A stretch of DNA of 26,091 nucleotides from a virus. Under the pieces are notes generated by a model. That model made no database searches. It saw only the letters and a list, made by a program, of their open reading frames with translations, and had not been told where the DNA came from. The DNA lies in IMG/VR virus record IMGVR_UViG_3300030102_006920, positions 1 through 26,091 of that record. The stretch is one strand, 5' to 3'. Positions 1 through 11,256 of the stretch are shown piece after piece. The first letter of the stretch is position 1; each line of letters opens with the position of its first letter. The position numbers and the translations under genes were made by a program.

Positions 1-1064
1 TTACTGGAAACTCTTTAACATCTTCAGTTGGTACAGGAGTTGCTACAGCTGATGTAAATATAACACCAACTGGTGTAAATCTGACATCTACTATAGGTCA
101 AGTAGGATCTATGGCTGAAGCTGGCACTTTAGCTTTAACATCCTCCATAGGAACTTTTTCCATATCTGGTGATTCACAAATAACTGTTGTAGCGGCAAGT
201 GAACCTGAATTAGATATATCAATAGGCACAGCCTCTGTAGAAATAGGTAAAACAGCTTTTCCATCAGGTAATGCTATTACTGCAAGTCTTGGCACAGAAG
301 TTGTAACAGGTAACGCTATCGTTAGCCCTACTGGTGTATCAAACACAGCATCTCTTGGAACTGAGGTTGCATCTACAGATGTTAATGTCGTAGGTGTTGG
401 TGGATTTATAACCAAAACTGTTACAGTAGTTAGAAACGCAGCTGATACAGCTAATATTTATGCTATAGATGGTGTTCCACAGCCTACTTTAGAATTAGCA
501 GAGGGTAATACATATAGATTTGATCAATCTGATGGATCTAATGATTCACATCGTTTAAAATTTTCTGAAACTTCTGATGGAACGCATGCAGGTGGTAGTG
601 AATATACTACAGGAGTAACCGTAGTAGGGACGTCTGGAACAGCTGGAGCATACACTGAAATTACTGTGGCTTCTGGTGCTCCTACATTATTTTACTATTG
701 TATTAATCACTCTGGAATGGGTGGTCAGGCAAATACTCCTTCATCTGATGCTAACGCCTTTTCTGCAAGCGGATTAACAAGTTCGATTGGTCAAATAGAC
801 TTTGTAGGATCTGTTTCTGCAGCAGCGTCTGGTAATGCTTTAGCTGCCTCACTTGGCGAAGAAAGTCAGTCTTCATCGTATGCATTTACGGGTGTAAGTG
901 CTTTATCAAACATAGGAACTTTAACAGTTACTGGAACTTCGACTTTGACACTTCCAGGAGTTTCTGCTACAATTAGCACTGGCACTCTACAAGGGACTTT
1001 TTGGTCAGAAGTAGATGACTCAAACAGCGATATAAGTTGGACAGAAGTTCACAAAGCTGCATAA
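1..1064 (+). CDS. Tail-fibre/appendage-type repeat protein with an internal cupredoxin-like domain (5' partial)
   Basis: The reading frame is open from base 3 at the window edge, so the start lies upstream; the first in-frame ATG (111) is only an internal Met. The protein consists of degenerate repeats of about 16-20 residues of the type GNxLTxSxGT...TG, seen before base 405 and again after about 750. Between them is a compact domain (405-749) with an IDGVPQPTLELAEG-type strand, SHRLKF (His codon 549-551) and YYCINHSGMGG (Cys 699, His 708, Met 717). Cys-x-x-His-x-x-Met after an upstream His matches the type-1 copper ligand set and the loop spacing of amicyanin. The C-terminus ends WSEVDDS...WTEVHKAA, an ending I associate with marine phage appendage proteins. 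The repeats and the neighbouring structural genes suggest an exposed virion protein. The structural role is fairly likely; copper binding is only inferred from residues. Confidence 0.75.
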   Translation, partial: TGNSLTSSVGTGVATADVNITPTGVNLTSTIGQVGSMAEAGTLALTSSIGTFSISGDSQITVVAASEPELDISIGTASVEIGKTAFPSGNAITASLGTEVVTGNAIVSPTGVSNTASLGTEVASTDVNVVGVGGFITKTVTVVRNAADTANIYAIDGVPQPTLELAEGNTYRFDQSDGSNDSHRLKFSETSDGTHAGGSEYTTGVTVVGTSGTAGAYTEITVASGAPTLFYYCINHSGMGGQANTPSSDANAFSASGLTSSIGQIDFVGSVSAAASGNALAASLGEESQSSSYAFTGVSALSNIGTLTVTGTSTLTLPGVSATISTGTLQGTFWSEVDDSNSDISWTEVHKAA

Positions 1065-1108: not shown

Positions 1109-2323
1109 ATGAGTTCGACGTATTCGACAAGTTTGAGAATAGAGCTACAAGGCACTGGTGAAAATTCAGGAACTTGGGGTACTATCACTAATAACAATTT
1201 TTCCCAATCGTTAGAATTTTCTATTGCTGGTACAGTAAATGTGGCTTGTGGGGATGCTGCAGTTACAACACTAACAAATAACGATGGACCACAAACTCAA
1301 GCAAACAACCAAGCCAGAAATGCACATATAAGATTAACTGGTGCACATGGTGCAGTAAGAATAGCACAATTCCCAGCTACACAAAAAGTTTATTTAATCA
1401 CAAACGCTACAACTGATTCTGGATCTTCTGGTCCATATGCGATGACTTGCAGACTAGGAGCGTCAGGTAACACTATTTCAATTGAAAACGGGGCTACAAG
1501 ATTAGTAGCAACAAACGGAACTGATTGGTTTGATGTTTTTGCTTCACCAGGCACTGTAACAGCGCCTGTAGATTTAAATGGTCAAACACTTACATTAGAC
1601 GCCGATGCTGATACAACTATCTCAGCAGCTTCTGATGATGTAATTACATTCAAAGTTGCAAATGCAAATCAATTAACACTTTCAGACGGAGCGTTATCTC
1701 CGTCTACAACAAACGACATTGATCTTGGAACTTCGTCTTTAGAATTTAAAGACGCATTTTTTGATGGAACTGTGCGTATGGACGCAATAGGTTTTGGAAC
1801 TACTTCTATGACACTGCCTACAAGTGATGGATCTGCAGATCAATTTTTAAAAACAAACGGCACTGGTACTTTATCTTTTGCAACAGTCTCAACAACCACT
1901 GCATTAGATGATATTGCTACAGGTGACGCTGAATCAACTTTAGCTACTACGACAGGAAATATAATTTTAGACGCACAAGGTAATGATACTGACATAGTAT
2001 TCAAAGGCACAGATAATACCGCTGACATAACCATGCTTACTCTTGACGGTAGTGAAGCTGGCACAGCAACATTTAATTCAGGTGCTGTTTTTGGAGGGTC
2101 TGTTTTACCTTCCGCTGATGATACTCATGATTTAGGATCTTCAACAAAACAGTGGAGGGACATATACACTGGTGACTTAAATTTAAACAATACAAAAACA
2201 AGAGCCAACGAAGTTGATGGCACATCAGGTCATTGGACTATTCAAGAGGGAGATGAAAACCTCTTTATTTTAAATAGATTAAATGGTAAAAAATATAAAT
2301 TCAACTTAGAGGAGATAGAGTAA
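1109..2323 (+). CDS. Phage tail-fibre/appendage structural protein
   Basis: The 404-residue protein starts SSTYSTSLRIELQGTGENSG and continues with a TWGTITNNNF segment, an N-terminal module I associate with appendage proteins of marine phages. The middle is rich in Thr, Ser, Asp and Gly with beta-type repeats such as DLGTSSLEFKDAFFDGTV and DLGSSTKQWRDIYTGDL. These two are copies of one shaft/baseplate-like repeat (DLG[ST]SS..[FW][KR]D...G), at about residues 201 and 340. The C-terminus (WTIQEGDENLFILNRLNGKKYKFNL) could be a tip or trimerisation region. The start has a strong AGGAGAT ribosome site 5-6 nt upstream. The stop overlaps the next start as TAATG, indicating coupled translation. No enzymatic motif is seen. 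It could equally be a neck fibre; the exact virion position is unknown. Confidence 0.7.
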   Translation: MSSTYSTSLRIELQGTGENSGTWGTITNNNFSQSLEFSIAGTVNVACGDAAVTTLTNNDGPQTQANNQARNAHIRLTGAHGAVRIAQFPATQKVYLITNATTDSGSSGPYAMTCRLGASGNTISIENGATRLVATNGTDWFDVFASPGTVTAPVDLNGQTLTLDADADTTISAASDDVITFKVANANQLTLSDGALSPSTTNDIDLGTSSLEFKDAFFDGTVRMDAIGFGTTSMTLPTSDGSADQFLKTNGTGTLSFATVSTTTALDDIATGDAESTLATTTGNIILDAQGNDTDIVFKGTDNTADITMLTLDGSEAGTATFNSGAVFGGSVLPSADDTHDLGSSTKQWRDIYTGDLNLNNTKTRANEVDGTSGHWTIQEGDENLFILNRLNGKKYKFNLEEIE

Positions 2324-2991: not shown

Positions 2992-3630
2992 TCACATTTT
3001 AGTATTATTATTACTTAAAAACCATGGTAAACCTAACATAGGCCTACCGTCATACTTGTTTAAATCTTTAAAAGGACCGTTCATATCATTATAATGTAAA
3101 AAAGTTTGACAACAGTCTTGACCCTGAAAAGGCTCTCTCCAATGTTCTAAATCGCAGCCACTATAAACTAACATATCGCCTGGATTTAAAAATACTTTTA
3201 TACCCTTTTTGTCAGTTCCTTCGCTAGGATCTAAATTTATTGGCCACTCATCTCCTCCTAAATTTAATGTGCAAGAAATTTCGCAAGAGGGTCTATCTTT
3301 ATGTCTTTTTAAAATATCTCCGTTTTTGTAAATCCTTAAAAAAGAATAACAAGGAACTAATTTTTTTCCTGTTATTTCCATCATTTTTGTTTTTAATTTT
3401 ACCAACAATGTTTCTGTAAGTATGTCGCCGTAGTTTACATATGTGTTAGGAACGGAAGTATCATCCCAAACACCCCATAAACTCTCGCCGTTTCTTACGT
3501 TTATTATTTCTTTATTATGTAAATATTTTACTACTTCTCTTTTCTGTAATAAATATGCGTAACAAAAATTAGCTAAATCTTCAGTTATTGCGTTTCTAAT
3601 AATCTCGTATTTATTTTCTTTAAAACTCAT
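2992..3630 (-). CDS. Fe(II)/2-oxoglutarate-dependent oxygenase-like protein, lacking the usual 2OG-binding Arg
   Basis: The protein is 212 residues from the ATG at 3630. A GTG 24 nt earlier (3654) is in frame, but the 3630 ATG overlaps the upstream stop as ATGA, so I prefer it. The core is FLRIYKNGDILKRHKDRPSCE, a strand followed by a His-x-Asp iron motif (H110, D112), then CTLNLGGDEWPINL, then NPGDMLVYSGCDLEHWREPF with the distal His (H163). That is the double-stranded beta-helix layout of prolyl-hydroxylase-like 2OG oxygenases. About 10 residues after H163, where an Arg or Lys normally holds 2-oxoglutarate, there is QDCCQTF instead. It may use another residue, a different cosubstrate, or be inactive. 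It is the last gene of the minus-strand block, and the substrate is unknown. Confidence 0.65.
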   Translation of the reverse strand: MSFKENKYEIIRNAITEDLANFCYAYLLQKREVVKYLHNKEIINVRNGESLWGVWDDTSVPNTYVNYGDILTETLLVKLKTKMMEITGKKLVPCYSFLRIYKNGDILKRHKDRPSCEISCTLNLGGDEWPINLDPSEGTDKKGIKVFLNPGDMLVYSGCDLEHWREPFQGQDCCQTFLHYNDMNGPFKDLNKYDGRPMLGLPWFLSNNNTKM

Positions 3631-4220
3631 TGAAATGTTGGTCCGTGCGCCCACCCGACAACTGCAAACCTTCTCCCCTTTGTTATTTCTGTTACCCTAT
3701 GAAAAACAAAACTTGGAAAAATAATTAGTGTGCCTTTCTCTCTTGTTCTTTTATCAAACTCTTGCCCAAAAAATTCTAAATCACCACCCTCGTACTCATC
3801 TGAATCAGATAATTGTAATGTAAATCCAAGCTTTCTAGTTGGAGAAGATCCACCTACGTCAAAGTGCCAATCAAATTTTCCTCCAACATCATAACGAAAC
3901 ACTTGAGGTTGATCTGTAAGCATGTCAAAACCAGTAATATCAAATTTCCAATAGTCAGAATTTATTTCTGCAATTGAGTTTGATATTTGTGGGTATGGGA
4001 AATGTTCGTCAATAATTTTAAGAGGCTGTTCATTACCTACTCTTTGTTTTGTTAAATCATCATTCATCTCATTTGTAACAGATTGCACTACCTCTGATTT
4101 AAACCAATCTTTTTCTAAAGAATCAATTATCTTTTGTATTCCCATGTTGTCAAATATTTTAGTGCAAACATATGTGTATCCTATGCTACGATTACCTTTT
4201 GGTTTAATTGTATAATACAT
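3627..4220 (-). CDS. PKHD-type Fe(II)/2-oxoglutarate-dependent oxygenase (prolyl hydroxylase-like)
   Basis: This 197-residue protein is the clearest oxygenase of the set. FRYDVGGKFDWHFDVGG carries the HxD iron motif (H119, D121). GFTLQLSDSDEYEGGDLEFF is the typical central region of the PKHD/YbiX-like group. GTLIIFPSFVFHRVTEITKGRR gives the distal His (H174) and the 2-oxoglutarate Arg ten residues later (R184). It ends VGWAHGP, a common ending in this group. The family hydroxylates amino-acid side chains or small molecules using O2 and 2-oxoglutarate; its substrate here cannot be told. The start has AAAAAGAAG just upstream. It is translated before, and coupled to, the next oxygenase (ATGA overlap at 3627-3630). 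The upstream 125 nt separates it from a plus-strand small gene, so it may have its own promoter. Confidence 0.88.
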   Translation of the reverse strand: MYYTIKPKGNRSIGYTYVCTKIFDNMGIQKIIDSLEKDWFKSEVVQSVTNEMNDDLTKQRVGNEQPLKIIDEHFPYPQISNSIAEINSDYWKFDITGFDMLTDQPQVFRYDVGGKFDWHFDVGGSSPTRKLGFTLQLSDSDEYEGGDLEFFGQEFDKRTREKGTLIIFPSFVFHRVTEITKGRRFAVVGWAHGPTFQ

Positions 4221-4504: not shown

Positions 4505-4751
4505 GAGTCGAACCCAACATATCTTTTAATGATGGAGCAAATACTTTTACATCTCGCTTAATTTTTTCTGCGGTTGTAGAAGTGTTTGGATCATCTATGT
4601 CTGCTTGCATAGCTTCTTCTGAATCATATTCTTGACCAGTGTCCATATTAGTTAATGTTGTTTCAGTTTTGACCTTATATCTTGGTATTACTCTACCGTC
4701 CTCTAAAGTCATAGTTCCTATTTGTTCAGCTGGTGTAATTATCGGCATCAT
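4497..4751 (-). CDS. Small conserved phage protein, function unknown
   Basis: This 84-residue protein begins MMPIITPAEQIGTMTLEDGR, continues VIPRYKVKTETTLTNMDTGQ, and has an acidic centre (EYDSEEAMQADIDDPNTST) with a basic, Pro-containing end. It has two start Mets in a row directly behind a GGAGGA ribosome site, so either ATG (4751 or 4748) may be used. It overlaps the upstream oxygenase stop by 26 nt, so the two are probably co-translated. There is no membrane segment or known catalytic motif. Its position next to virion genes in the same block makes a structural or assembly role possible, but nothing in the sequence proves it. Confidence 0.65.
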   Translation of the reverse strand: MMPIITPAEQIGTMTLEDGRVIPRYKVKTETTLTNMDTGQEYDSEEAMQADIDDPNTSTTAEKIKRDVKVFAPSLKDMLGSTPK

Positions 4752-5325
4752 TCCTCCAATTTATATTAAAACTTAAAATAACTCTATCTTCGTTAGAACT
4801 ATTATATTGTACTTCATGTTGTAACCATGACGGGAAAAAAATCAAGCTATTCTCCTCTGGCTCCCAAGAAACACTATGTGCTATGTGCACAGAGGCTTTT
4901 TCTTTTTTTGGAGGTGATAATACCTCAGCTTGTGGTTTAGGCTCCAGAAACACTAAATTACCGCTTTTTTTAGGCACTTTTAAATAGTAAACACCTGAGA
5001 GGTAATTGTAAGGGTGTGTATGAACATTATTTCTTGATCCAGGTGGATTAATCATTCCCCATAAACCTGTCATCTCTGGATTGTAATCGTCCTGAACATC
5101 TAAATGTTGAAAACACTCTTTAGCTTTTAGCAGTATATCTCCAACGGTGCTTTTAAATTCCACATCTTTGTATAATTCATCATGGCTATGCCATCCTCCT
5201 ATGTTTGATCGTGGCATGCCTTTTTCGTCTTTATCTTTGATTTCATAAAGCCTATCTATCAAGTGCCCATGGCCCTCAATTTTAGTCATCAAGATTGGTG
5301 TTATAAATAATGATTGTAATTCCAT
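4726..5325 (-). CDS. Putative 2OG-Fe(II) oxygenase of the TIGR02466-like type
   Basis: The 199-residue protein has the fold signature of a 2OG-Fe(II) oxygenase, with a variant metal motif. LWGMINPPGSRNNVHTHPYN contains H102-T-H104 in the position of HxD, followed by YLSGVYYLKVP, which resembles the TIGR02466 group. Later ENSLIFFPSWLQHEVQYNSS supplies the distal His (H170), and EDRVILSFNINWR the Arg (R181) eleven residues on. N-terminal YKDVEFKSTVGDIL-type helices fit the family. It starts behind a clean AGGAG site 6 nt upstream of the ATG and follows the 123-aa virion-type gene by 13 nt. The reaction is probably O2- and 2-oxoglutarate-dependent hydroxylation; the substrate is unknown. Confidence 0.8.
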   Translation of the reverse strand: MELQSLFITPILMTKIEGHGHLIDRLYEIKDKDEKGMPRSNIGGWHSHDELYKDVEFKSTVGDILLKAKECFQHLDVQDDYNPEMTGLWGMINPPGSRNNVHTHPYNYLSGVYYLKVPKKSGNLVFLEPKPQAEVLSPPKKEKASVHIAHSVSWEPEENSLIFFPSWLQHEVQYNSSNEDRVILSFNINWRNDADNYTS

Positions 5326-5710: not shown

Positions 5711-5870
5711 GGAAAAAACTCTCTGCTTGTGAATCTTCTTTGAGATCTTGTTGATAGTTTGTATTTAATAATAATATTATTTGATCTAATAATTTTACTA
5801 ATTGATCAAATTGTCCAGGATTATACTCTGGGGTTGCGTTGGGTAATCTAGTAATTGTAATTTTAGCCAT
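5703..5870 (-). CDS. Small 55-aa phage protein with an amphipathic helix
   Basis: An ATG at 5870 opens a 55-codon frame: MAKITITRLPNATPEYNPGQ, then FDQLVKLLDQIILLLNTNYQ, then QDLKEDSQAESFFLG. The middle is a Leu/Ile-rich amphipathic helix that could oligomerise. The start overlaps the oxygenase stop upstream as ATGGCTAA (8 nt), and its own stop overlaps the next start as TTGGCTAA (8 nt). It therefore fits exactly into an otherwise unexplained 150-nt gap, which is strong evidence that it is real. Function unknown; a small neck or tail accessory protein is one possibility. Confidence 0.7.
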   Translation of the reverse strand: MAKITITRLPNATPEYNPGQFDQLVKLLDQIILLLNTNYQQDLKEDSQAESFFLG

Positions 5871-6297
5871 TTTTATACCAAATAGACAAAGTGTGTCTTA
5901 TTCCTTTTACAACATTTAATACAGCATGTTTGTACATCCTACCATCAAAATAATAGGTTCTACCCTTAATTGGAGATATTTTAATAGCCTCAACTAGAGC
6001 CTCTCCCCCAATAAAATTGTCATTTAAAAAGGTTATTGACGCTCCAGTTGTAGTTTCTCTAGCCTGATCGAAGTGAAAGGGCATAGATCCTCCTAAAGGA
6101 TATGAAACTATTTGTGCTAACTCTACGTTTTTAAATTTATTATCAACAGATTGATTTAAAATTTTAGTCACTGAAGGATGATTATGATTAATATCGACAG
6201 TAAAGCTGTCTCCCCATTTTTCATTTGGATAATTTGTAAATTCTAATAGTTTTTTAATTTCTTCTTCTGATAATGTATTATCTTTAATACAGATCAT
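5863..6297 (-). CDS. Compact Fe(II)/2-oxoglutarate-dependent oxygenase
   Basis: At 144 residues this is a short but complete-looking oxygenase core. IVSYPLGGSMPFHFDQARET carries HxD (H75, D77). SITFLNDNFIGGEALV is the mid-core region. GRTYYFDGRMYKHAVLNVV holds the distal His (H124), and KGIRHTLSIWY places the 2-oxoglutarate Arg (R134) ten residues on. All metal and cosubstrate residues of the P4H-like group are present. The start overlaps the end of the large structural gene as ATGA, and the stop overlaps the 55-aa gene, so it is embedded in a virion-gene transcript. The short N-terminal region (about 60 residues before the core) suggests a minimal enzyme; the substrate is unknown. Confidence 0.85.
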   Translation of the reverse strand: MICIKDNTLSEEEIKKLLEFTNYPNEKWGDSFTVDINHNHPSVTKILNQSVDNKFKNVELAQIVSYPLGGSMPFHFDQARETTTGASITFLNDNFIGGEALVEAIKISPIKGRTYYFDGRMYKHAVLNVVKGIRHTLSIWYKNG

Positions 6298-8152: not shown

Positions 8153-8953
8153 TTACTTATTGTTTTGTGGCAAGAATTGAGTTCCCACATTGCCTTTAAA
8201 TGCATAATTACCATAGTGAGTCATACCAGACACTATATCTGCGTAAATTTTACCGCCTATATTTTGCCATAAACGGCAGAAAGCATAATCTTCTGAGAGA
8301 TATCTTCTAGTTTTTGGCTCAATTATTGTGTCAAAAAAAGTAAAATTCCAGTTGGATGTTTTATGATAATCAAACTCTTTGTCATGTGATTGATTAATAT
8401 GTTGATCAGGAACAAAACTTAAATCAGGATAACTCTTTGCCATTTGTTCAAATACTTGCCTTTTAATTAACATAAATCCAGTAGGTCCGTCTAATACTTC
8501 TATAAAACCTTTATCTAACAGGATTTTTTCAGGGTTTTTAACATTTAAATTGTACTGCAAAGATGAGGCCAGTAACTCATCCTCCGATATGTTTGGATTT
8601 TCTTTAATTCTCTTCTTTACTTTTATCCAATCAATTGTTTTTCTAGGATATATTCCTGTGACAACGTCCTTATCGTAATCTAACATTCTAATTACAGCCT
8701 CTGGATTGAATGCTAAGTCTGCGTCAATAAATAAAAGATGAGTATAGTCACCATCCATAAACAATTGCACTAAAGTGTTTCTAGCTCTAGTTATCAAAGA
8801 CTCATTGCCTATGGTTCCAAACTGTAATTCTATTTTGTTGGAGGCCGCTAAAGCTACTAATTGCATGCAACTTTTAAAATAATCTGATGACAACATACCT
8901 CCATAGCAAGGGGTGCCAATAAAAAGTTTTATTTGTAATTTTTCCTTGTCCAT
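8153..8953 (-). CDS. GT-A-type glycosyltransferase
   Basis: This 266-residue protein begins IKLFIGTPCYGGMLSSDYF, the nucleotide-sugar-binding start of GT-A enzymes. A long helix follows with NESLITRARNTLVQLF, then THLLFIDADLAFNPEAVIRM, where D77-A-D79 is the DxD metal/nucleotide motif. Further on, DVVTGIYPRK, VLDGPTGFMLIKRQVFE and a late RYLSEDYAFCRLW (acidic ED in the acceptor/catalytic region) fit the same fold. This style is common in marine phages. The donor sugar and acceptor are unknown; candidates are virion proteins, host surface glycans or modified DNA. A clean AGGAG ribosome site lies 7 nt before the ATG, although the start also overlaps the upstream gene by 25 nt. The downstream neighbour is the 614-aa virion protein; two oxygenases flank it within about 2 kb. 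Confidence 0.85.
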   Translation of the reverse strand: MDKEKLQIKLFIGTPCYGGMLSSDYFKSCMQLVALAASNKIELQFGTIGNESLITRARNTLVQLFMDGDYTHLLFIDADLAFNPEAVIRMLDYDKDVVTGIYPRKTIDWIKVKKRIKENPNISEDELLASSLQYNLNVKNPEKILLDKGFIEVLDGPTGFMLIKRQVFEQMAKSYPDLSFVPDQHINQSHDKEFDYHKTSNWNFTFFDTIIEPKTRRYLSEDYAFCRLWQNIGGKIYADIVSGMTHYGNYAFKGNVGTQFLPQNNK

Positions 8954-9675
8954 ACTTTACTCCTGTATAAATCATACAAAGTTGAAAAATAATTCCAACT
9001 CCATATACTTATTTTTTTATTTAAGTTTGGGTCATTATTAATTTTCATCTCCCAGTCATCTCTTCTAAAAGGGAAGACTAGAGCAATCGGTGTGCCTTTC
9101 TTTACTACTTTTTTTCTAGAGACGTGATGATCCCAATCTTTTAAAAAAAATGGAAAATTTATAAACGTCTCATATTTGTCTGTATCTACCACTGCAGTTA
9201 TAATTCTTGTATCTCTTCGTTCTGTATTAAAAGGTGAAGTAAACAAACAACTGTATCCTGGTGGTGTTTTAATTACCCACGGATTTAAAAATTTAAATGC
9301 AACTGGCACCTCTTCGTCATAAATCATTGTTTTACTTATTTGTATTTCTGCGTGAGTTTGAACTCCAACATTGAACTCACTTTCTGTATGAACTTTATGT
9401 ATTGATTCATAATCTAAAAGCCTGGCAGGTCTAACTTTTATCTCATAATTATTATCTCCAAATGCTTCGTTTTTTGTAAATTGAATATCTATAGGGGACA
9501 ATATTGCGTATCCCATAGTCATGCTATCCAGTACGGGCTGACATTTTCTTATCGTATTATTATTTGCATCCTCTATAATTATTTTCATATTTTTGTACCA
9601 ATTTGGTATTACTTTTTTTATTGGCACAGGTTTTTCTAAATGATCTGCATATGAACTACTAAAACTAATTATCAC
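8929..9675 (-). CDS. DUF6065-like conserved protein, function unknown
   Basis: The 248-residue protein starts with GTG: GTGA overlaps the upstream oxygenase stop. Features: PIKKVIPNWYKNM near residue 20-30, FKFLNPWVIKTPPGYSCLFT at about 128-146, VVDTDKYETFINFPFFLKD at 162-180, and KKGTPIALVFPFRRDDWEM at 192-210. The order 'PPGY... / VDTD.... / KGTPIAL.FPF' matches what I remember of the DUF6065 family, a group without known function; I could not check this. The beta-rich appearance with an internal His cluster (WDHHVS) would allow a cupin-like fold. It sits between an oxygenase and a glycosyltransferase, with overlaps on both sides, suggesting a shared modification pathway. Confidence 0.65.
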   Translation of the reverse strand: MIISFSSSYADHLEKPVPIKKVIPNWYKNMKIIIEDANNNTIRKCQPVLDSMTMGYAILSPIDIQFTKNEAFGDNNYEIKVRPARLLDYESIHKVHTESEFNVGVQTHAEIQISKTMIYDEEVPVAFKFLNPWVIKTPPGYSCLFTSPFNTERRDTRIITAVVDTDKYETFINFPFFLKDWDHHVSRKKVVKKGTPIALVFPFRRDDWEMKINNDPNLNKKISIWSWNYFSTLYDLYRSKVWTRKNYK

Positions 9676-10217
9676 TTATCAGGCTCTCTAAAAAATATAT
9701 TTAGTGTATACCTCGGGCTACTTTCTCCAAGTGCTTGTAAATCTGAATGTAAAATTTTACTACAATTAAAAAATAAAGCTCTGTTTTCTACAAAACCAAT
9801 GTGTGATGACAGTTGTTGGTCATAAAGAAAACCCGTGCCATTGTTTAATAATGGCTCACCTTTGACAAACAAAAGGAAGATAGCACAAACGCCATCATCT
9901 GCATCCATATGAAACAAGGGTTCTCTCATAACATCTTTTATGTGAGCATGAATTGATACAGTTTCTAGATTTCTATTAGGATAAAACATGTCTTTTATTT
10001 GTTTTAAAATAGGATCATTTAAAATTTTCTTTCCAACATAAGCATCTGGTTTTTTTCTCATGTAAAAAGTGTGTCTTTTACCGTAAGCATTACCATGCAT
10101 ATCTTTTGCTATCCCGTAATTAAGATTGCTAAACGTTTCTTGCATATGTTTTAAATTTTTTTCTTCTAAAAAATTATCAACATACATAACAAATTCTGTG
10201 TCTTTATTGAGTTGCAT
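9672..10217 (-). CDS. Fe(II)/2-oxoglutarate-dependent oxygenase
   Basis: The 181-residue protein carries REPLFHMDADDGVCAIFLLF, with HxD (H103, D105) at the start of the core. Next come NGTGFLYDQQLSSHIGFVEN and RALFFNCSKILHSDL with the distal His (H157), then SSPRYTLNIFFREP with Arg (R169) twelve residues on. The spacing and order fit the phage 2OG-Fe(II) oxygenases that end in YTLNIFFR. The N-terminal half (DNFLEEKNLKHMQETFSNLN) is the usual helical lead-in. It overlaps the upstream 83-aa gene by 14 nt and the downstream DUF6065-like gene by 4 nt, so it is tightly coupled. Reaction: likely hydroxylation; substrate unknown. Confidence 0.82.
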   Translation of the reverse strand: MQLNKDTEFVMYVDNFLEEKNLKHMQETFSNLNYGIAKDMHGNAYGKRHTFYMRKKPDAYVGKKILNDPILKQIKDMFYPNRNLETVSIHAHIKDVMREPLFHMDADDGVCAIFLLFVKGEPLLNNGTGFLYDQQLSSHIGFVENRALFFNCSKILHSDLQALGESSPRYTLNIFFREPDK

Positions 10218-10476: not shown

Positions 10477-11256
10477 TTACTTTTTATAAGTTGCAGTAAA
10501 AACGCTATCCAGTCTATCTTCAACGGTTGTGTCTTGCACGACATCATCTTTTAAACCTTGAGGACCGCCAGTTTCTAATGACGGCTTATATTGCTCACTT
10601 GCCACTCCTCTCGGCACTACTTTAACATTAAAAGATGTAGATCTTCTCTCTTGGTTAGGTGTTCTAAATGGATAAACGCAATGCGTTAACCAAGAAGGAA
10701 ATAAAAAAATATCCCCCACTTTAGGGCTGTGTTGAAAATTGTTTTCACTAAAGTGTTGTGCGTTGCCATAAGAGAACACTATGTCACCGACTGCAGGAAA
10801 ATGATCTTCTTTAGATCTTTCTTCATCCATGCTTTCTGGTATCCTCGTATACAAAACACCTGATAAATCACCGTCGTGCACATGCATAGGATTAAAGTCA
10901 CCTGCCCACTGAGAAACAGTCCACATAGATTCTATTACAACTTTTTGTATTTTTTCTGATGGTATTGTATTCATCGCTGGTTTTATTGTACAATATGATT
11001 GTATCATTTGACCTAAAAACTGCACAAACTCTGAACAATGTTTTTCAAGCCAGTCTGGAGTAATTCTAACCTCTTGTTTTACGTTGCCTGCAAGATTCAT
11101 TGACCAGTCATGTTTTTTTGCTAATACTGGGTCATTTAACAGTTCAGATGAGTGTTCATCTATTTTTCTAACGATATTATTTGGCAATGTGCCCTTAACT
11201 ATTACAGGGCCCCAAGGCTGAATTGCTTGTAAATTGTACTTGGTTTCTTCAGTCAT
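10477..11256 (-). CDS. Putative 2OG-Fe(II) oxygenase with HVH metal motif; first gene of the minus-strand block
   Basis: The 259-residue protein contains ESMWTVSQWAGDFNPMHVHD, with H125-V-H127-D128 as the first metal motif. Next is GDLSGVLYTRIP, as in the TIGR02466-like group, then VGDIFLFPSWLTHCVYPFRT with distal His H192, and ERRSTSFNVKVV with Arg 204/205. Whether H125/H127 or H125/D128 bind iron cannot be decided from sequence. A roughly 25-residue insertion (SMDEERSKEDHFPAVGDI) separates the two halves. A C-terminal tail of about 45 residues (QYKPSLETGGPQGLKDD) is extra. An AAGGA ribosome site lies 7 nt before the ATG, and a good promoter stands about 50 nt upstream. It is the first reading frame of the transcript that carries the other oxygenases. 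Confidence 0.78.
   Translation of the reverse strand: MTEETKYNLQAIQPWGPVIVKGTLPNNIVRKIDEHSSELLNDPVLAKKHDWSMNLAGNVKQEVRITPDWLEKHCSEFVQFLGQMIQSYCTIKPAMNTIPSEKIQKVVIESMWTVSQWAGDFNPMHVHDGDLSGVLYTRIPESMDEERSKEDHFPAVGDIVFSYGNAQHFSENNFQHSPKVGDIFLFPSWLTHCVYPFRTPNQERRSTSFNVKVVPRGVASEQYKPSLETGGPQGLKDDVVQDTTVEDRLDSVFTATYKK

Follow-up and report, generated by a model that had tools for sequence, protein, structure and literature searches.

A cupredoxin-like domain with a conserved type-1-like ligand set in structural proteins of marine phages

In this work we describe a domain of predicted cupredoxin fold that is inserted into a phage tail protein and carries the four residues, in order, of a type-1 copper site. 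Its fold and the conservation of its ligands are well supported, and the domain is widespread among marine phages, not confined to the one in which it was noticed. That it holds a real metal site, occupied mostly by copper, seems likely to us, although metal binding is here an inference. On balance, we lean towards a cupredoxin domain displayed on the virion, with a mononuclear and probably copper-binding site, serving as an attachment or metal-pinned docking module, in which both the metal and the function are inferred.

The carrier gene and its insert

The window, the whole stretch of 26,091 nucleotides that was analysed, corresponds to bases 1-26091 of a virus record of 30,369 bases, window base 1 being record base 1. 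The features considered are the following:

3..1064, plus strand: carrier, a tail-module protein built of repeats and truncated at its 5' end where the contig begins, with 353 amino acids visible
3..98, plus strand: degenerate repeat units upstream of the insert, TGNSLTSSVG at 3 and TGVNLTSTIG at 69
264..299, plus strand: repeat unit upstream of the insert, SGNAITASLG
about 396..749, plus strand: inserted cupredoxin-like domain, 118 amino acids, from an AlphaFold2 model for which cupredoxins head both PDB comparisons
549..551, plus strand: predicted metal ligand His, domain residue 52, directly before strand 54-57
699..701, plus strand: predicted metal ligand Cys, domain residue 102, ending strand 98-102
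708..710, plus strand: predicted metal ligand His, domain residue 105, in the loop following the Cys
717..719, plus strand: predicted axial metal ligand Met, domain residue 108, in the loop preceding strand 109-113
828..863, plus strand: repeat unit downstream of the insert, SGNALAASLG
1109..2323, plus strand: next gene, tail-fibre-like protein in the gp69 position of HTVC027P, from PHROG 31104, 13518 and 892 and gene order

The first-pass annotation had proposed a cupredoxin-like insert with intact copper ligands in a tail-type repeat protein. Its reading frame and residues were exact, and His549, Cys699, His708 and Met717 all lie in the frame of ORF 3-1064, but the gene is incomplete, as the contig start truncates this ORF; complete relatives (L003 and L006) have ~494 amino acids and the N-terminus MASLQGWGRQTWNSG. 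The degenerate repeats said to flank the insert are genuine, with units of the form (T/S)G(N/V)-x-(L/I)-x-(S/A)(S/T)-x-G at 3, 69, 264 and 828, the best pair (264-299 and 828-863) sharing 72% DNA identity. Three lines of evidence also back the "phage tail-type" label, namely gene order, PHROG matches of the carrier to tail-fibre/baseplate families and homology to HTVC027P, whose gp68 corresponds to the carrier in gene position and, weakly, in sequence and is a repeat protein of the same kind (30% identity, E 1e-9, to be taken with caution because of low complexity). PHROGs and gene order thus place it among the phage tail or virion structural proteins, presence in particles being documented only for a relative in phage P-SS2. 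No insert is found in HTVC027P gp68, and a profile search of HTVC027P positions 30000-57595, the only half searched, returned no such domain.

According to its DNA polymerase A and its stabilisation protein (phrog_3287), the nearest phages are the pelagiphages HTVC027P and HTVC023P, phage 023Pt_psg01 and Phage DSL-LC04. From the insert-bearing gene on, the gene order matches HTVC027P gp68 to gp87, with a tail protein, small tail genes, minus-strand 2OG-Fe(II) oxygenases, the stabilisation protein and an SNF2-type helicase in common, from which we infer that the record probably covers some half of a phage genome of ~60 kb. Across the window, the oxygenase genes are interleaved with tail genes, four of them being clear (3627-4220, 4726-5325, 5863-6297 and 10477-11256, all minus strand) and two more possible (2992-3654 and 9672-10217, minus strand); some PHROG labels on these genes (ferrochelatase, DNA endonuclease V) look wrong. 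Beside them, a weak glycosyltransferase family 2-like protein and a DUF6065 protein are encoded at 8153-8953 and 8929-9675 (minus strand), and together with the oxygenases they could possibly form a surface or base modification set.

The ligand loop is of the amicyanin type, C-x2-H-x2-M, as had been claimed, reading CINHSGM in the window and CTPHPFM in amicyanin. The four-residue motif is not a product of chance: H-x40-60-C-x2-H-x2-M was absent from all 20,000 shuffled versions of the domain, it has a single stop-free occurrence in a six-frame scan of the window, and it is conserved in relatives, as described below. Furthermore, Cys699 is the sole cysteine among the 353 visible residues of the carrier, so a disulfide cannot explain why it is conserved. 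Amicyanin, plastocyanin and pseudoazurin (PF00127) share with the domain the fold, the His-Cys-His-Met order and, in the case of amicyanin, the loop length. However, these are soluble exported electron carriers whereas the domain of the window is part of a virion protein and has no Pfam match over the cut-off, and its first His lies 50 residues from the Cys compared with 39 in amicyanin. Cyanophages do carry petE (PMC3037559), and a plastocyanin-type auxiliary metabolic gene for host photosynthesis could in principle be invoked here too. This can practically be discarded, as the domain is internal to a structural gene in which no signal peptide was seen, an architecture that already contradicts it, and it is also found in phages whose hosts, Pelagibacter and Methylophilales, are non-photosynthetic.

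Predicted fold of the domain

The insert, modelled with AlphaFold2 from 22 relatives, gave a pLDDT of 92.8 and a pTM of 0.87. When compared to the PDB with Foldseek, its leading matches were 2dv6 (E 4.5e-4), rusticyanin, AcoP, pseudoazurin, plastocyanin and amicyanin. Few of the E-values were below 0.001 and the TM-scores were moderate (0.5-0.6), so the fold assignment depends on the consistency of the list. With VIA-align the matches listed were copper-fold proteins, and domain I of the Hyphomicrobium nitrite reductase (2dv6) aligned over 100 residues (Z 9.2, rmsd 2.6). Another branch of the family, shorter than that of the window, was modelled independently (pLDDT 94.1) and matched the same domain over 81 residues (Z 8.8, rmsd 1.9), and all 50 of the matches listed for it were copper-fold proteins. 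The top PDB sequence match of the profile of this branch was plastocyanin 1b3i, with His, Cys and His in register, although its E-value of 0.053 is sub-significant alone. The N-terminal domain of the Hyphomicrobium denitrificans enzyme and rusticyanin are thus the best structural matches (Z 9.2 and 7-8, respectively), but they belong to enzymes or electron carriers and have less than 20% sequence identity to the domain of the window.

Residue 115 of the insert model aligns with rusticyanin residue 155 in VIA-align. Given this pairing, and a loop that is four residues longer in rusticyanin, the Cys102 of the model falls on rusticyanin residue 138, the copper cysteine of that protein, which agrees with the positions read from the strands. 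The comparison with copper proteins that had been suggested for the domain therefore upholds a cupredoxin fold (a Greek-key beta-sandwich of about eight strands, predicted and not solved), in whose topology the four residues take the places of type-1 copper ligands, and the other ground given for refutation, a fold that sets these residues far apart, is not borne out by the prediction. The assignment of a type-1 (blue) site, His, Cys and His plus Met, rests on sequence and secondary structure, the distances between ligands being unmeasured.

Sequence comparisons alone were less informative. Neither Pfam nor NCBIfam gave a significant match for the window protein, and no Pfam copper-protein model exceeded its cut-off for the domain; PF00127 (Copper-bind) did not match the window protein and was reached by 2 of 29 relatives with E 0.031 at best, under the cut-off, and the cut-off of PF25489 (At5g54830-like domain) was not met by the window or phage members. 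A profile-profile comparison to cupredoxins scored 25.0 against a mean of 10.2 (SD 2.2) for column-permuted profiles, none of 150 of which reached it, but a rotation control failed to separate it and no more than 18 columns were spanned by the default alignment, for which reason we place no weight on this score. PDB sequence searches with the single sequence and the first profile yielded nothing but antibody chains and other chance matches (E >0.03), which were rejected, as they were driven by a YYC motif. In the BFVD, Marseillevirus and pithovirus "beta-sandwich proteins" (A0A481YVH3, A0A481Z6J5 and A0A481Z7Q7) match the insert model with E about 1e-5 to 1e-6, hinting that the same predicted fold could be present in giant viruses.

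A genuine but structural site for another metal, such as zinc or iron, has to be considered, since His2Cys(Met) sites can bind zinc and a zinc-bound Bacillus Cupredoxin_1 structure (4hcg) is among the fold matches, and fibres of the T4 type bear iron at HxH sites (PMC11705849). We regard this as unlikely, because the ligand set, the loop spacing and the fold are those typical of copper proteins and the Met is invariant. Those iron sites resemble the domain in placing a metal within a tail appendage, and tailed-phage Ig-like domains in being modular beta domains of virion proteins (PMC11705849, PMC10579305), but the use of the fold and the ligand set are different.

Conservation and joint loss of the ligands

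Of the 241 homologous domains in the non-redundant set, 234 retain the complete set of four ligands, which rules out the non-conservation that would have refuted the initial proposal. As some search patterns contained the Cys motif, ligand-free patterns were used as a separate set, and the relatives from the loci found with these kept the ligands in every case (71/71). The four ligands do not vary among 22 close relatives, in contrast to another His (64), and in an alignment of the two phage branches with bacterial proteins they are among only seven fully conserved positions. Of the seven exceptions, four lack the first His, the Cys and the second His jointly and three are truncated or have the loop missing; not one of the 241 domains has lost just one or two ligands. 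Such joint loss is expected where a metal site is kept or lost as one unit.

Ligand-less copies are those of P-SS2 ORF 080 (L199 5995-6333) and L238-L241 and the second copy in L203. Here the first His is replaced by Asp, Ala or Tyr, the Cys by Ala and the second His by Thr or Pro, the remaining domain being retained, so that nature provides a ready-made control. In the case of P-SS2 ORF 080 the domain makes up the entire protein, and a mean of 9 peptides from it was detected by mass spectrometry in purified virions (PMC2784084, Table 2). This indicates that members of the family can sit in virions and that a metal-free scaffold can function; as this ligand-less protein is the one member known from particles, a role in the virion does not require metal.

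The persistence of such members (the P-SS2 group, with its protein in the virion, and one copy in Syn1_099) is what would be expected of a beta-sandwich with a merely structural function, which decorates the protein as Ig-like domains do, binds no metal and has kept its ligand residues by descent or chance. Nevertheless, we consider this very unlikely for the family as a whole, as the 234 domains keep the four ligands in both phages and bacteria, even where identity falls to about 30%, and the losses are joint. Against a metal site it also counts that phages are assembled in a reducing, copper-poor cytoplasm and that no metal has been measured.

As a separate observation, tandem double copies with all ligands in both are found in L067 (2971-3633), L072, L088, L247 and L248.

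Distribution, carriers and possible role

Two queries of 50,697 phage records matched 125 and 347 of them, and these were phages of Synechococcus, Prochlorococcus, Pelagibacter and Methylophilales together with unassigned marine or uncultured ones, with no others. Cultured phages that carry the domain include S-TIM5, S-SSM4, HTVC028P and EXVC032P. Structural proteins of at least five kinds serve as its carriers:

gp64-like protein (023Pt_psg01): domain N-terminal
gp65-like proteins: domain C-terminal
gp68-like proteins (the window): domain in the middle
pelagiphage tail fibres: domain C-terminal
baseplate wedge-tail fibre connector of T4-like cyanophages: domain C-terminal

The connector (PHROG 677; for example in S-SSM4) carries a member of the same family with intact ligands, but of the shorter branch and on a different carrier from that of the window, and apparently it has never been described as a cupredoxin; database labels for the domain are tail fibre, baseplate wedge or hypothetical/unknown. 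Although the fold and the metal site have long been known, we could not find their use in virions at such a scale in the openly licensed literature, where no relevant description of phage cupredoxins, plastocyanin-like tail domains or copper on tails was found. In a tree of the domain, the carrier classes are nearly monophyletic and 5 carrier changes are needed where 4 would be the minimum, which suggests that moves between carriers have been few. Free jumping between carriers was rejected on these grounds, with the reserve that the tree has few columns and many unresolved forks.

Outside phages, the domain with all four ligands is present in SAR86 lipoproteins (L109/L114, with a lipobox followed by CGGGGG), in larger gammaproteobacterial lipoproteins (L344-L349) and in Photobacterium surface-type proteins of ~4,000 residues. 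The lipoproteins, found by profile search, differ from the phage proteins in their location in the cell envelope and not in virions, and two of them (L345 and L348) pass the PF25489 cut-off, which the window domain does not. Recurrence in envelope and surface settings favours, by inference, a role in contact. Many matches in Pelagibacteraceae "genomes" were discarded as cell proteins, since they resemble phage-type tail fibres within single-cell assemblies.

A redox-active domain, which would transfer electrons or scavenge copper or reactive oxygen at the surface of the cell being infected, would agree with a fold and site typical of electron-transfer proteins, and PF25489, matched by the related lipoproteins, is named after Arabidopsis At5g54830, a protein mentioned in a paper on surface metalloreductases (PMC10784544). 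We find this highly improbable, as there is no redox partner, the carriers are many unrelated structural proteins and ligand-less versions persist. It is also conceivable that the loaded site acts as a copper "Ferrojan horse", letting the phage dock on a metal-uptake receptor of the host, for which there is a published parallel with iron in tail fibres (PMC11705849), and the phage records matched are all marine. However, the receptor is not known, the gp64-like and gp65-like carriers are not distal fibres and ligand-less copies occur, which makes it quite unlikely.

The explanation that we prefer, an attachment or docking module, could be drawn as follows. An independently folding cupredoxin domain would have been grafted into a repeat-built tail or neck protein of a pelagiphage-like podovirus or siphovirus, retaining a putatively complete mononuclear type-1-like site (His, Cys, His and Met) with the short amicyanin loop. 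The carrier would be made and assembled in the host cytoplasm, and because this is copper-poor, we infer that the site would probably be loaded, most likely with copper, only at lysis or in seawater. Once filled, it could pin the ligand loops of a module whose external display we deduce from its carriers. Most likely the module would serve to make contact, either with the surface of the host or with adjacent parts of the virion, and not for electron transfer, which the lack of partners makes unlikely. A broader version, in which a large share of marine tailed phages, many T4-like cyanophages and pelagiphages among them, bear copper-loaded cupredoxins on their virion appendages and attachment or host recognition is governed by the state of the metal, remains doubtful.

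Many ocean phages may nonetheless carry bound copper, metal binding being again inferred. If the site is filled, marine virions would be metalloprotein particles and possibly a reservoir of protein-bound copper in seawater that has gone unrecognised, and infection of the most abundant bacteria of the ocean could be affected by copper. In any case, hundreds of marine phage genomes contain a domain that is at present labelled merely "tail fiber", "baseplate wedge" or "hypothetical", and this domain is given a name and a testable chemistry.

Two minor features of the relatives can be added. The gammaproteobacterial lipoproteins L344-L349 have about 500 amino acids, with the domain copy on the N-terminal side (C-x2-H-x2-M intact) and a helical-looking C-terminal part. 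Finally, one gp65-like carrier (L085 5481-6291) has CxxC pairs (CDRCG...CRSCY) alongside the cupredoxin domain, possibly a zinc ribbon.
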